Positions 19,506 through 23,206 of a stretch of DNA of 64,000 bases are shown here, piece by piece. Origin of the DNA: an uncultured Balneola sp. GTDB taxonomy: Bacteria > Bacteroidota > Rhodothermia > Balneolales > Balneolaceae. Made by a program: the position numbers and the translations under genes. The notes below the pieces were generated by a model, which was given only the letters and a program-made list of their open reading frames with translations, was not told the DNA's origin and searched no databases. Every line of letters begins with the position of its first letter. The first letter of the stretch is position 1. The stretch covers positions 1 through 64,000 of the forward strand of contig CAJXQC010000012.1 in NCBI GenBank assembly GCA_913058495.1, given 5' to 3'.

Positions 19506-19895
19506 TTAGTCTTCTTTTTTCTTCGCTTCTTCCTCTTCTGCTTCTACAGCAAATACATCAGGAACAGCGTTTTTCTTTTGAAGCTCACGATGGCGAAGCA
19601 TCTTAGCATCATATTTAAGCGTTAGAAAACGAAGAACATCGTCATCAATTCTTAGTGCACGTTCTACTTTTGCAATTGTATCAACAGGTGCGTTGAAATA
19701 CATATTCACATAGAAACCGTTGCTTTTTTTGTCGATATCGTAGGCAAACTTTCTTAAGCCCCACTCTTCAACTTCATCAACATCGCCGCCGTGCTTTTCG
19801 ATCAATTTGTTCACTTTATCAACAACAGCGGCAAACTTATCCTCGTCTAGAACGGGATTGATGATATAAGTGAATTCGTAATAATTCGTACTCAT
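19506..19895 (-). CDS. rpsF: 30S ribosomal protein S6
   Basis: 129 residues: the S6 ferredoxin-like fold (YEFTYIINPVLDEDKF...GLRKFAYDIDKKSNGFYV) with an added acidic tail (AVEAEEEEAKKKED) of the kind often seen in this protein. It is the first gene of the rpsF-rpsR-rplI operon. A TTG-N20-TATATTTA promoter lies about 80 bases upstream, leaving a leader of some 70 bases that could carry the S6:S18 feedback element, but I could not convince myself of that fold. Confidence 0.96.
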   Translation of the reverse strand: MSTNYYEFTYIINPVLDEDKFAAVVDKVNKLIEKHGGDVDEVEEWGLRKFAYDIDKKSNGFYVNMYFNAPVDTIAKVERALRIDDDVLRFLTLKYDAKMLRHRELQKKNAVPDVFAVEAEEEEAKKKED

Positions 19896-20004: not shown

Positions 20005-20040
20005 TGGCTGTATTAAGGAAAGTTTAACCAGTTCAGTGTC

Positions 20041-20305
20041 ATCGGTCGGACGGCTCAAAGCCGTCTGATCGATTTATTGTCCCAAATGATTATATAGAAG
20101 TCATCCAGAGCGGAGCGATCGACATCAAACCAGCCGGACGTAAACGTCCTCCTTGTTTAATCTTCACACATCTACATTCAGGAAACTTAAACAAGCAGAT
20201 CCTTCAGGTTCTGCGGATTGCGTTACAAATAGCTCAAATCTAGAACAGGCGAAGCAGGAGCTTCCAATTGTCATTCCGCAGCAGAGCTACGGAACGAGGT
20301 TAAAA
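20041..20305 (-). repeat. Long intergenic repeat, copy A
   Basis: About 265 bases, sharing long blocks with copy B at 20971-21242: the opening hairpin, AGTCATCCAGAGCGGAGCGA, a GGACGTAAACGTCC hairpin plus its flanks, and the closing CATTCCG...ACGGAACGAGGTTAAAA. Its opening hairpin has a 15-bp stem (20041-20055 with 20059-20073, two G-U pairs). Near the end it contains a complete copy of the REP-like double hairpin (20243-20296). It ends 12 bases before the stop of the 186-aa gene. Confidence 0.85.
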
Positions 20306-20316
20306 ATGGCTTAACC

Positions 20317-20877
20317 TTAATAGGTTAATTTATTCGGGAATGTTTTAAAATAGAGATTACTCAAGCGTTCGGTAGCAATCTTAATCTCCACTTCCTTTTC
20401 TGATTCTATAATATTTCGCTTTCTTAGACAATTAATCAATAAATGCACGTTTATCCTTTGATTATAAAAAAAACTAAATTCAAAAATGATAGGGTAAACT
20501 TGGTTTTCATTTGTAACAAAATTGAATAAATAAAAACTGTTTAGAAAGTCTAACTTAAATGGTTGTTTTGAAATCTCAACTCTTTTTATAGAATTAAAAT
20601 CTAAATAAAAGCGCTCCTTATTTCGAATCTCTATTAAAATTCTATTCGATTCTATAAATAACTGACTATTTCTATAAAACCTAAGATATGGCATAAAATA
20701 GGTTGCCATTAAAAGCATTGAAACTAACAAAACTTTTCCTTTAGCAGACTCAATTTGATCAAAAAATACAATTAGAACTGCCCACAAAATTATAAAAGGG
20801 ATATAATTTACTATTCCAGAGATTGTAAGATCTCTTTCATTCCTATAATGGTTAATTTTGAACGATTTTCTGATCAC
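20317..20877 (-). CDS. Small membrane protein of unknown function (186 aa)
   Basis: No family recognised. It has two hydrophobic helices near the start (about 24-43, YIPFIILWAVLIVFFDQI, and 48-66, KVLLVSMLLMATYFMPYLRFY), like the two-helix bacterial proteins with a PH-like C-terminal domain. The rest is soluble, rich in Lys, Phe, Tyr and Asn. The gene is clearly more AT-rich than the surrounding ribosomal and nuo genes. It sits alone between repeat copies A and B, which suggests it arrived with, or between, those repeats. Confidence 0.55.
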   Translation of the reverse strand: MIRKSFKINHYRNERDLTISGIVNYIPFIILWAVLIVFFDQIESAKGKVLLVSMLLMATYFMPYLRFYRNSQLFIESNRILIEIRNKERFYLDFNSIKRVEISKQPFKLDFLNSFYLFNFVTNENQVYPIIFEFSFFYNQRINVHLLINCLRKRNIIESEKEVEIKIATERLSNLYFKTFPNKLTY

Positions 20878-20911
20878 TATTTATTATTGATTGTTTAAAA
20901 TCGAATATAAT

Positions 20912-20929
20912 AAAAAGCCTAAGGCTTTT
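20912..20929. terminator. Symmetric hairpin AAAAGCCT-A-AGGCTTTT
   Basis: A perfect palindrome with A and T runs on both sides, able to act as a terminator in either direction. It lies 35 bases upstream of the 186-aa gene and would separate it from transcription arriving from the right. Confidence 0.45.
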
Positions 20930-20970
20930 AACCAATTAAGACCTTCGAATAAGATTATGAAAGAATGAAA

Positions 20971-21242
20971 TCGGTCAGACGGCTCAAAATCTTCTGACCG
21001 AATTATTGTCACAAATTAGAAGTCATCCAGAGCGGAGCGATGGATTTGCACAATTCTTTCCTTGCTGATTCTTAGTTGTGAAGACTCTTCGCTCTCGCTC
21101 TGAGTGACTAAGTTCTTATGCTTTTAAAGAATCGACATCAAACCAACAGGACGTAAACGTCCTCCTTGTTTAATCTTCAAAAATCTACATTCAAGAAACT
21201 TAAACAAGCATTCCGTAGTGGAGATACGGAACGAGGTTAAAA
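20971..21242 (-). repeat. Long intergenic repeat, copy B
   Basis: Diverged copy of the repeat at 20041-20305. It begins with TCGGTCAGA/TCTGACCGA arms, carries an extra ~85-base block that makes a large hairpin (21023-21041 with 21089-21108), and lacks the GGAAGC hairpin that copy A holds before the closing block. It ends in the stop codon region of the 124-aa gene (TTA 21237-21239 is inside GAGGTTAAAA). Confidence 0.85.
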
Positions 21243-21611
21243 CCAAGAGCCGATAATTAAGTTCTTTTTCTCCATCGGTTTATTGTATGAAAACCAATTA
21301 GATGTATATATCAATATCTCACTAACTTGTATAAAATCTTCTGGTTCAAGATTGGAAATCCGGAAAATATCATCCAAATCTTTGGAATAGCTAAGCAGTC
21401 TTTCAAGTTTTAGACTGATTTCCCAAATTAAAATCGCAGAAAGATATTTTTCTTTTTCTGTTAGATCAATGAGGCTTAGTTCATAAACTACATTTGTGTA
21501 ATTATGAAAGTCTTCTTTATCAAAAAAACCCTCTTCATTAAGCTCGTAGAAAAAACCTTCTCTACCTTCTAAAAAAACTTCCAAATAATTTATGTATTCG
21601 TCTACTGTCAT
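21237..21611 (-). CDS. Small acidic helical protein of unknown function (124 aa)
   Basis: No family recognised. The product is soluble, acidic and probably all-helical (MTVDEYINYLEVFLEGREG..., then LTEKEKYLSAILIWEISLKL), with no signal peptide. It is AT-rich. Its stop codon lies inside the closing sequence of repeat B, and a shorter copy of the same hairpin element (21670-21719) sits upstream of its start. It thus looks like a second cargo gene of the repeat array between rpsF and nuoN. Confidence 0.55.
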   Translation of the reverse strand: MTVDEYINYLEVFLEGREGFFYELNEEGFFDKEDFHNYTNVVYELSLIDLTEKEKYLSAILIWEISLKLERLLSYSKDLDDIFRISNLEPEDFIQVSEILIYTSNWFSYNKPMEKKNLIIGSWF

Positions 21612-21669: not shown

Positions 21670-21719
21670 GGAAGCAGGAGCTTCAGTCTTTCATTCCGCA
21701 GCGGAGCTACGGAACGAGG
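21670..21719 (-). repeat. REP-like double hairpin 3' of nuoN
   Basis: GGAAGCAGGAGCTTC then CATTCCGCAGCGGAGCTACG, matching the copies at 2589 and 20243. It lies 57 bases beyond the nuoN stop in nuoN's orientation. Between it and nuoN are three repeats of ATCAGCGAAAT or a close variant (about 21739-21775). Confidence 0.8.
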
Positions 21720-21775: not shown

Positions 21776-23206
21776 TCAAAAACCGGTAATCAATTCCATC
21801 AACCCACCGAAAGGCAAGATAGGCTCAATGCCATAATACACAGTGAGCACTGCCAGAATTACCAACGCACCTTTATAAAGGAAAGAAGCATCGATCATCT
21901 CTGTTTCTTTGTGCGCTTCGCGGAAGTATAAGTACACCATCACTCGTAAGTAATAGTACACACTTGCAGCACTGGCAAGCACACCAACAATAGCGAGTGG
22001 AACCATGTTTGCATTAATAGCTGCTGCAAATACGTAGTACTTACCAACAAAGCCTACAAATGGAGGAATTCCTGCTAGTGAGAATAAGAAAAGTGACATC
22101 ATCACTCCCATCATTGGCTTTTTGAAACCAAGTCCGGCAAGATTGTTGACATCAGAAAAATCAAGTCCTTTATTTCTTTCGTAATAAGCTACCACACCAA
22201 ATGCTCCAACATTCATGATAGTGTAAGCAAATAAGTAGAACGCCACAGCACTGTAACCTTCCTGTGTTGCAGCTGATAATCCAACGAGTGCGTAACCTGC
22301 ATGAGCGATACTTGAGTAAGCCAACATTCTCTTGATGTTATCCTGAACAAGCGCAATGATGTTACCAAAGATCATCGTGATGATCGCTACAACAGAAAGC
22401 ACTGCTTGCCAATCCAATCCTTCAACCGATGGAAGCGCTCTTGAAAGAACCAAGATCATAGCCATGAAAGTCGCAGCTTTTGAAGCCGTAGCCATGTAAG
22501 CGGTAAGAGTAGTTGGTGTAGCCTGATACACATCCGGCGTCCACATGTGAAAAGGAACTGCTGACACTTTGAATAAAAATCCGATTAACAATAAAGCCGC
22601 TCCTGCTAAGAATAAAAGATCGCTGCTTGCAGCTGCGCCGATTCCGGGAATACTAGTAGTTCCTGTTGCGCCATAAAGAAGAGCTGCCCCGTACAATAAA
22701 AATCCTGTAGAGAATGCACCTAGTAAGAAATACTTAAGAGCTCCTTCCGCTCCTTGCTTCTCATTTTTGATCAAACCTGCCATCACATATAAACAGATGG
22801 ACATAGTTTCCAATCCTAAGAAAAGAGAAATAAGATCGTTCGCTCCGGCAAGACAGATCATTCCTGAAGTTGCGAAAAGGATCATTCCATAAACTTCATT
22901 GTAGTTGTGATCAATTCCTTCCAGATAATCATTGGATAAGAAAACACAGAAAAGCGTTCCAAGAAGTATAATTACATTACCAAAAGCTGCAATTCCGCCG
23001 TGAACCAACATTCCTGAAAAAGCTTCCTGTAATGGAGTTCCCAATGACTGGATTCCAAAAAACAGAGCTACGATCAGTGAAAAAGAAGTAACCCAGTGTG
23101 CCGACTTGTGCCCGCTTTTGAGTGCTTCTATCGTAATTACTGCCAAACCGGCTACAGCTGTAATTATACCCGGTAAAAATGCTTGTAAATCGCCTAAATA
23201 ATCCAT
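21776..23206 (-). CDS. nuoN: NADH-quinone oxidoreductase subunit N
   Basis: 476 residues of nearly continuous membrane helices (about 14). NuoN is one of the three antiporter-like proton-pumping subunits of respiratory complex I. The family pattern is clear: GLETMSICLYVMAG with the pumping glutamate, the Lys in a helix near VSAVPFHMWTPDVYQA, and DNIKRMLAYSSIAHAGYAL. It is the last gene of the nuoL-nuoM-phhB-nuoN group, 9 bases after the pterin dehydratase gene. Confidence 0.95.
   Translation of the reverse strand: MDYLGDLQAFLPGIITAVAGLAVITIEALKSGHKSAHWVTSFSLIVALFFGIQSLGTPLQEAFSGMLVHGGIAAFGNVIILLGTLFCVFLSNDYLEGIDHNYNEVYGMILFATSGMICLAGANDLISLFLGLETMSICLYVMAGLIKNEKQGAEGALKYFLLGAFSTGFLLYGAALLYGATGTTSIPGIGAAASSDLLFLAGAALLLIGFLFKVSAVPFHMWTPDVYQATPTTLTAYMATASKAATFMAMILVLSRALPSVEGLDWQAVLSVVAIITMIFGNIIALVQDNIKRMLAYSSIAHAGYALVGLSAATQEGYSAVAFYLFAYTIMNVGAFGVVAYYERNKGLDFSDVNNLAGLGFKKPMMGVMMSLFLFSLAGIPPFVGFVGKYYVFAAAINANMVPLAIVGVLASAASVYYYLRVMVYLYFREAHKETEMIDASFLYKGALVILAVLTVYYGIEPILPFGGLMELITGF

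Follow-up and report, generated by a model that had tools for sequence, protein, structure and literature searches.

REP-type hairpin mosaics and putative orphan immunity genes in the rpsF-nuoN spacer of a Balneola clade

The spacer between the core genes rpsF and nuoN of an uncultured Balneola sp. (NCBI GenBank assembly GCA_913058495.1, contig CAJXQC010000012.1) contains two direct repeats, copies A and B, and a shorter third element, with a small gene of low GC (guanine plus cytosine) content in each of the two intervals; these open reading frames (ORFs) are designated ORF A and ORF B. The window analysed comprised 64,000 nucleotides, positions 1 to 64,000 of the contig. Copies A and B are mosaics of hairpin modules of the repetitive extragenic palindromic (REP) type from several dispersed families, of the REP/BIME kind (BIME, bacterial interspersed mosaic element). 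From comparisons with related genomes, the rpsF-nuoN spacer of one Balneola clade would appear to be a landing and recombination site of stacked REP-type elements which hold exchangeable competition genes, an interpretation to which we assign a probability of roughly 0.6. The genus was represented by eight genomes, G000 to G007, G000 being that of the window; modules are numbered with M and retrieved loci with L. The features of the spacer were the following:

19506-19895, minus strand: rpsF, conserved left border of the spacer (Pfam)
20041-20299, plus strand: repeat copy A, with M1 (20040-20096), truncated M2 (20095-20122), M3 (20128-20196), M4 (20197-20249) and M5 (20251-20299)
20317-20877, minus strand: ORF A, 186 aa, 26.4% GC, putative orphan immunity protein
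20970-21236, plus strand: repeat copy B, with M1 (20970-21016), complete M2 (21017-21123), M3 (21130-21210) and the core of M5 (21208-21236); M4 is missing
21017-21123, plus strand: the complete copy of M2, an imperfect GTCATCC...GAGTGAC hairpin, similar to a REPIN (REP doublet forming a hairpin)
21237-21611, minus strand: ORF B, 124 aa, 29.6% GC, putative orphan immunity protein, the presumed toxin being of the Ntox21 type
21671-21719, plus strand: third element, a single M5, placed as the terminal M5 of G003, G006 and G001
21776-23206, minus strand: nuoN, conserved right border of the spacer (Pfam)

An earlier note, made from the sequence alone, had proposed a pair of repeats of about 270 bases between rpsF and nuoN, with long blocks in the same order and orientation, and this was borne out, both border genes being confirmed by Pfam. 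The copies are co-linear and share blocks of 47 nt at 85% (20041/20970), 28 nt at 96% (20095/21017) and 80 nt at 94% (20118/21131), as well as the terminal block CATTCCG...GGAACGAGG (20251-20299 versus 21188-21236, the second at 65% across its full 49 nt). The hairpin block of about 85 bases which the note had ascribed to copy B is the remainder of M2, which is complete in B and cut to 28 bp in A; the block of about 70 bases in A corresponds to M4 (20197-20249 plus tail), and the shorter element after the second gene is a further copy of the terminal module M5. Since M2 is complete in G003, G006 and G007, copy A probably lost the rest of it; similarly, copy B probably lost M4, because this module is present in G003, G006, G001 and G007.

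The array blocks recur in the window's genome, where 34 matching places were found, query included, with 40 of 77 candidates scored. When the mosaic of G006 was used for searching the eight genus genomes (29-40 candidates scored per genome), 59-77 places were obtained in each of G000, G001, G003, G006 and G007, and 36, 32 and 15 in G002, G004 and G005, respectively. Maps of selected regions showed modules mostly between ORFs, with few overlapping them; stretches picked regardless of modules hold few (8 module matches in 300 kb outside the window). Folding was better than that of shuffled sequences for M1 (z -6.1 and -4.6), M2 (-2.8), M3 (-3.7 and -6.1) and M5 (-2.2, -3.1 and -2.2), and M2, M7 and the combination of M6 with M8 were recognised by eye as inverted, REPIN-like hairpin pairs. 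Among the matches listed, places elsewhere contained single modules or short combinations (M3-M4, M6-M8) only, and the full composite M1-M2-M3-M4-M5 was not found at another locus; the expectation that the same bracket would occur at other loci with different cargo was therefore not confirmed within these matches. Rfam yielded four tRNAs and nothing else over the whole window. A promoter scan gave 9 sites, barely above the shuffle mean of 7.7, and terminator-like sites numbered 7 versus 1.1 in shuffles, as expected from hairpin repeats.

Comparison of this interval in relatives, which had been proposed in the earlier note, showed that the genes between the repeats differ, the spacers holding their own cargo, other cargo or none. 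A search for rpsF matched 38 of 38 genomes, own genome counted, and 20 loci were retrieved. Module order was determined by a module scan, in which all matches share one orientation (M2' is the truncated M2):

G000, 1880 bp, ORFs A and B: M1 M2' M3 M4 M5 ORF-A M1 M2 M3 M5 ORF-B M5
G006, 1403 bp, no cargo recognised: M1 M2 M3 M4 M2 M6 M7 M8 M1 M2 M3 M4 M5
G003, 680 bp, no cargo recognised: M6 M8 M1 M2 M3 M4 M5
G001, 497 bp, no cargo recognised: M6 M7 M4 M5
G007, at least 1752 bp (contig ends), PIN and RHH genes: M1 M2 M6 M1 M2 cargo M1 M7 M8 M4
G004, 1094 bp, RHH and ParE-like genes flanked by 27-nt direct repeats: no M modules
G005, 184 bp: no modules
G002, 137 bp: no modules
Outside the genus: G010, 184 bp; G014, 147 bp

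Weaker remnants of M1 were noticed by eye in G006 and G001. The scan found no modules in 12 spacers, namely those of G004, G005, G002 and nine from other genera, for which the scanned lengths were 144-278 bp; the mosaic would thus seem to have arisen, or to have been kept, only in the group of G000, G001, G003, G006 and G007 among the genomes seen. Six cargo genes over three genomes are co-directional with rpsF and nuoN, and modules are present on both sides of each cargo gene of G000 and of the cargo of G007. PIN plus RHH-like pairs occur twice in G007, in the rpsF spacer (L067:1495-2137) and beside the relative of ORF B (L090:2065-2696, named by eye). nuoN adjoins rpsF in 15 of the 20 loci; the contig of G007 ends within the spacer, and no nuoN stands beside rpsF in G020, G012, G017 and G011. 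The two genes are neighbours in G023 and G031, genomes of other families, but not in these four family members (L075, L076, L077, L080); the neighbourhood was probably broken in the latter, because the other families keep it.

Both ORFs probably represent orphan immunity genes, since relatives of each are situated directly behind RHS toxin proteins. Among 394 genomes sampled from the phylum, relatives of ORF A beyond its own genome were present only in G007 (53% identity; 28.1% GC) and G012, both directly behind RHS-core proteins (TIGR03696, E 1.8e-14 and 4.9e-12; NCBIfam), whose tips are 50% identical across two genera. Pfam detected an RHS repeat in the G007 toxin protein only, and no RHS domain in that of G012. 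Relatives of ORF B were restricted to G002, G007 and G020 in the same set; a contig search led to the same three loci, in Balneolaceae bacterium ECT2AJA-110-D, Balneola sp. EhC07 and a Rhodothermia bin, with coordinates agreeing with those in G002, G007 and G020, respectively. Since G002 and G007 are congeners of the window's genome, the latter is assigned to the genus of Balneola sp. EhC07 (Balneolota). The relative in G002 lies behind an RHS-core protein (E 3.2e-18) which ends in Ntox21 (E 1.5e-20); in this protein Pfam found Ntox21 only, the RHS core being assigned by NCBIfam, above cut-off in all three toxin proteins. The ORF B relative of G007 has as neighbours a symporter-like gene and a PIN/RHH-like pair, both named by eye, and that of G020 has small genes, of which two are without Pfam match. 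Thus, the position downstream of a toxin applies to two of two relatives of ORF A and to one of three of ORF B. The orphan genes are not constant in the genus: ORF A is present in two and ORF B in three of the eight genomes, own genome counted, and in the others they occupy different loci; the constant presence which would have refuted the note's interpretation was not observed. Searches of G000 for Ntox21 and for a tip of the ORF A type gave no match; the assembly is 99.39% complete in 47 contigs, so that a toxin within a gap is possible.

The GC contents of both genes are well below the 38.7% of the window. Neither reached the Pfam cut-off (ORF A had one match, E 0.33), and NCBIfam, PHROGs and PADLOC gave no family for either at E 0.1, in agreement with the AT-rich gene of unknown function described between the copies. 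As to the membrane protein of the note, ORF A has one clear hydrophobic stretch (about residues 17-45); one could guess that the corresponding toxin acts at the membrane. A low-confidence model of ORF A, folded alone (pLDDT, predicted local distance difference test, 61), consists of helices followed by a beta-rich part. The model of ORF B, from an alignment of four sequences, is all-alpha (mean pLDDT 78), with no fold match in the PDB at E <= 0.001; a profile match to a solved structure (E 0.93) was not credible.

Small nuclease genes were found next to several module families elsewhere in the genus. In G000, copies of M2 bracket a GIY-YIG gene (C38:5109-5465; L170:4870-5850) which lies between protease-like and ATP synthase beta-like genes (names by eye); the same site in G001 and G003 contains two copies of M2 and no GIY-YIG gene, and a further M2-bracketed GIY-YIG gene is present in G004. 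A genus search yielded 71 GIY-YIG matches, of which 55 loci were retrieved and 47 parsed as small genes. At 23 of 45 loci scored, the two 200-bp flanks had repeats in common (score >= 40), versus 4 of 296 control ORFs, among them ORF B of the window. Hairpins tagged GTCAYYC occurred on both sides of 12/47 small GIY-YIG genes versus 0/296 controls, and on either side of 19/47 versus 7/296, with controls unmatched for spacer length and with accessory genes also favouring REP-rich spacers. Y1 transposase loci, which likewise represent mobile genes and were given wider flanks, had such hairpins on both sides in 1/32 and on either side in 5/32. The 47 loci are a non-independent sample, ten of the twelve both-side loci belonging to one subfamily; this bracketed subfamily comprises 15 loci (L201 and L229 being outside the 47), which BLAST of outer flanks reduced to 10 distinct sites, eight of which come from G006 and G007, a close pair. 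In 11 of the 15, the distance from the beginning of the left hairpin to the start codon is exactly 62 bp, and compensated stem changes are seen on both arms (CCCGAA/TTCGGG, CCTGAA/TTCAGG, GCTGAA/TTCAGC). From these sequence patterns, the GIY-YIG nuclease is a candidate mobiliser of the GTCATCC...GGATC modules. A GIY-YIG copy with an in-frame stop (L229, G007:C20:301607) has both hairpin ends at standard spacing. Several hairpin-negative loci have other flanking repeats; long direct repeats lie on both sides of some GIY-YIG genes without GTCAYYC hairpin, at L254 (Sinorhizobium sp. C101), L218, L195 and L202.

M5 was present within 750 bp on both sides of 5 of 33 Y1 loci (L014, L104, L109, L112, L113), as an inverted pair in all but L104, and flanking of this type was not seen for M1, M2, M6, M7 or M8 at the 33 loci. 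Five units of M3/M4 in direct orientation surround a 120-aa IS200-like Y1 gene (G006:C10, L165:1283-2351), with a spacing of about 128 bp between neighbouring units on either side of it. At three tested loci, DUF559 (PF04480) genes were located at, or overlapping, pairs of M6/M8 of the CCCACCC...GGGAGGG type (L159:2889-3347, L160:1805-2245 and L166:1865-2188; G003, G007, G004); perhaps M6/M8 is a further hairpin family that has a nuclease gene of its own.

The mosaics may have formed by successive insertion of modules from such families, followed by duplication and deletion between like modules. The partner of M5 would be a transposase of the RAYT (REP-associated tyrosine transposase) type, that of M2 and of M7, which was seen in relatives, the GIY-YIG nuclease, and that of M3/M4 the IS200-like transposase of the single locus; for M1 no partner was seen. 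Small self-contained competition genes would have entered the spacer, two orphan immunity genes here and toxin-antitoxin pairs in two relatives, and would have been retained, being useful where interruption of the spacer is harmless. With repeated modules on either side, recombination over homologous or shortly homologous stretches could duplicate, exchange or remove cargo.

Several observations weigh against this scenario. No gain of cargo was directly seen, and each cargo was found once at the spacer, with eight genus genomes compared. The toxin-antitoxin cargo of G004 sits in its spacer without any of the modules. Relatives of ORFs A and B elsewhere have no module within the stretches searched (5 loci, 0.15-1.5 kb per side), so that donor loci would be without the bracket; similarly, no immunity-like gene was recognised by eye beside modules in 20 mapped regions, where most genes were not library-searched and one region, L177, is the RHS/ORF A locus of G007, which is without modules. 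Two of the three relatives of ORF B are not beside an RHS gene, and ORF A has only one clear hydrophobic stretch. In copy A, M4 (z +0.4) and the truncated M2 (z +0.3) fold no better than shuffles. M3 of copy A is 93% similar to that of copy B and equally 93% to a copy from G006, and therefore an origin of A and B by duplication in place is not proved. Finally, 28 of the 47 small GIY-YIG loci lack the GTCAYYC hairpin, which would limit the link between nuclease and hairpin to some subfamilies.

Some of these points would be explained by passive accumulation in a tolerant spacer, where REPs settle behind genes and cargo arrives by unrelated illegitimate, phage or plasmid recombination, the repeats having no role in exchange. 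This alternative fits the cargo of G004 and the relatives without nearby modules; moreover, REPs are reported close to the 3' ends of genes (PMC3733652), and M5 copies adjoin the stop codon of ORF B directly and that of ORF A at 17 bp. However, modules flank each cargo of G000 and that of G007, module order is partly retained, and blocks were lost cleanly, as recombination between modules would yield; passive accumulation appears possible, if rather doubtful.

ORFs A and B could also be native regulatory or membrane genes of unrelated function, with relatives next to RHS genes by chance. No library names either ORF, and two of the three ORF B relatives are not behind RHS genes; yet in three cases, from two unrelated families, the relative comes immediately 3' of an RHS-core protein, where immunity genes usually stand, and the relatives of ORF A track one family of toxin tips across two genera, which makes this explanation unlikely. 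That the locus is a site-specific cassette system like integrons or rAID (recombinase-associated acquired interbacterial defence) arrays, with modules as tyrosine recombinase sites, is very improbable: co-directional small orphan immunity genes and conserved intergenic motifs recall the rAID arrays described in PMC12247911, but the modules are several unrelated dispersed families rather than one site, there are two cargo genes only, and no tyrosine recombinase was present among 10 ORFs tested (16.7-27.2 kb; no genome-wide search was made). Of the cassette-like array suggested in the earlier note, the variation of genes between repeats in relatives stands; the composite was not seen elsewhere among the matches listed, and there is no evidence of dedicated cassette machinery, because no recombinase occurred among the adjacent ORFs tested.

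Beyond Balneola, a tblastn search for plasmid GIY-YIG genes gave 34 records, of which 13 were examined. In 11 of these 13 a repeat is common to both flanks, with scores from 34 to 203, the lowest, at L257, being weak; none was shared at Rhizobium tumorigenes L255 or Photobacterium L258. By a stricter hairpin rule, hairpins were present on at least one side in 9/13 and on both sides in 7/13, which are at most six independent sites, since L253 and L260 resemble one site in two Sphingobium strains. The loci with both sides were from Shinella (two), Rhizobium, Sphingobium (two), Azospirillum and Spirosoma (Bacteroidota); the cyanobacterium Planktothrix had a hairpin on one side by this rule. Altogether, 20 hairpins were located in 3.9 kb beside the gene versus 17 in 34.8 kb further off, the far part being mostly coding, and the Shinella hairpin was present at 11 to 39 places in four Shinella records.

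REPs with a CGTC tag, which the GTCATCC...GGATC modules resemble, are known, according to PMC3733652, from Proteobacteria (mostly alpha), Chlorobi, Bacteroidetes, Spirochaetes and Thermotogae, and were reported there in 2013 without a dedicated transposase (Di Nocera et al. 2013). M7 in G006 and G001 reads CGTCATCCCGAA...TTCGGGATC and carries the CGTC tag; M2 in the window reads AGTCATCC, and several Balneola GIY-YIG loci read GGTCATCC. We infer that GIY-YIG moves CGTC REPs. In the open-licence literature (bioRxiv not included) no paper joining REPs with GIY-YIG was found, which does not prove absence, and none joining orphan immunity with REPs; papers on GIY-YIG with intergenic repeats concerned organelles by title, and among the titles listed for GIY-YIG with mobile palindromic repeats none was on bacterial REPs. 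A wider proposition, to which we give an even chance, is that several hairpin families each have their own small nuclease, and that CGTC-type REPs form the inverted hairpin ends of a mobile element which encodes a GIY-YIG endonuclease of 96-97 aa, with solo REPs as non-autonomous copies of it; this would apply to Balneolota and alphaproteobacteria, and probably to cyanobacteria and Bacteroidota. The rpsF-nuoN array would then be a pile-up of such elements, bringing in immunity and toxin-antitoxin genes.

Several known systems resemble the array in part. REPs, REPINs and BIMEs with RAYTs (REPtrons) are likewise short dispersed intergenic hairpins, occurring singly, paired or in mosaics, and M5 flanks some RAYT-type genes, a minority of Y1 loci, mostly as an inverted pair; in contrast, other modules here flank GIY-YIG, DUF559 or short IS200-like genes, and the mosaic holds competition genes. 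The M7 hairpin, which has the tag of the CGTC REPs described in PMC3733652, is of one type with copies beside GIY-YIG genes on alphaproteobacterial plasmids; unlike the CGTC REPs as described there, the hairpins here bracket GIY-YIG genes, and M2 of the window has the reading given above. With the rAID arrays of Bacteroidales, as presented in PMC12247911, the spacer has in common co-directional orphan immunity genes, a variable locus and a repeated intergenic sequence; it differs by the lack of an adjacent recombinase among the ORFs tested, a REP mosaic in place of one motif, only two genes, and toxin-antitoxin pairs in relatives. Heterogeneous polyimmunity loci, as outlined in PMC3482391, also contain adjacent unrelated immunity genes without toxins, differing between relatives, but here the genes are separated by hairpin mosaics and belong to families outside Pfam; Imm41 is listed with Ntox21 in the polyimmunity table of that paper, and ORF B has no Pfam match. 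By analogy, the array may act in part like rAID arrays and polyimmunity loci, with repeats of the REP/BIME kind.

If the immunity function is true, a REP mosaic in a core-gene spacer would be a setting, beyond the recombinase-linked arrays, for collecting genes which protect against the toxins of rival bacteria. GIY-YIG nucleases would be candidate mobilisers for REP families without a matching RAYT. If their link to the hairpins holds, the question of what moves CGTC REPs, a point open in print since 2013, would be answered, and a nuclease gene with its hairpin ends would represent a two-component system and a new kind of REP mobiliser.
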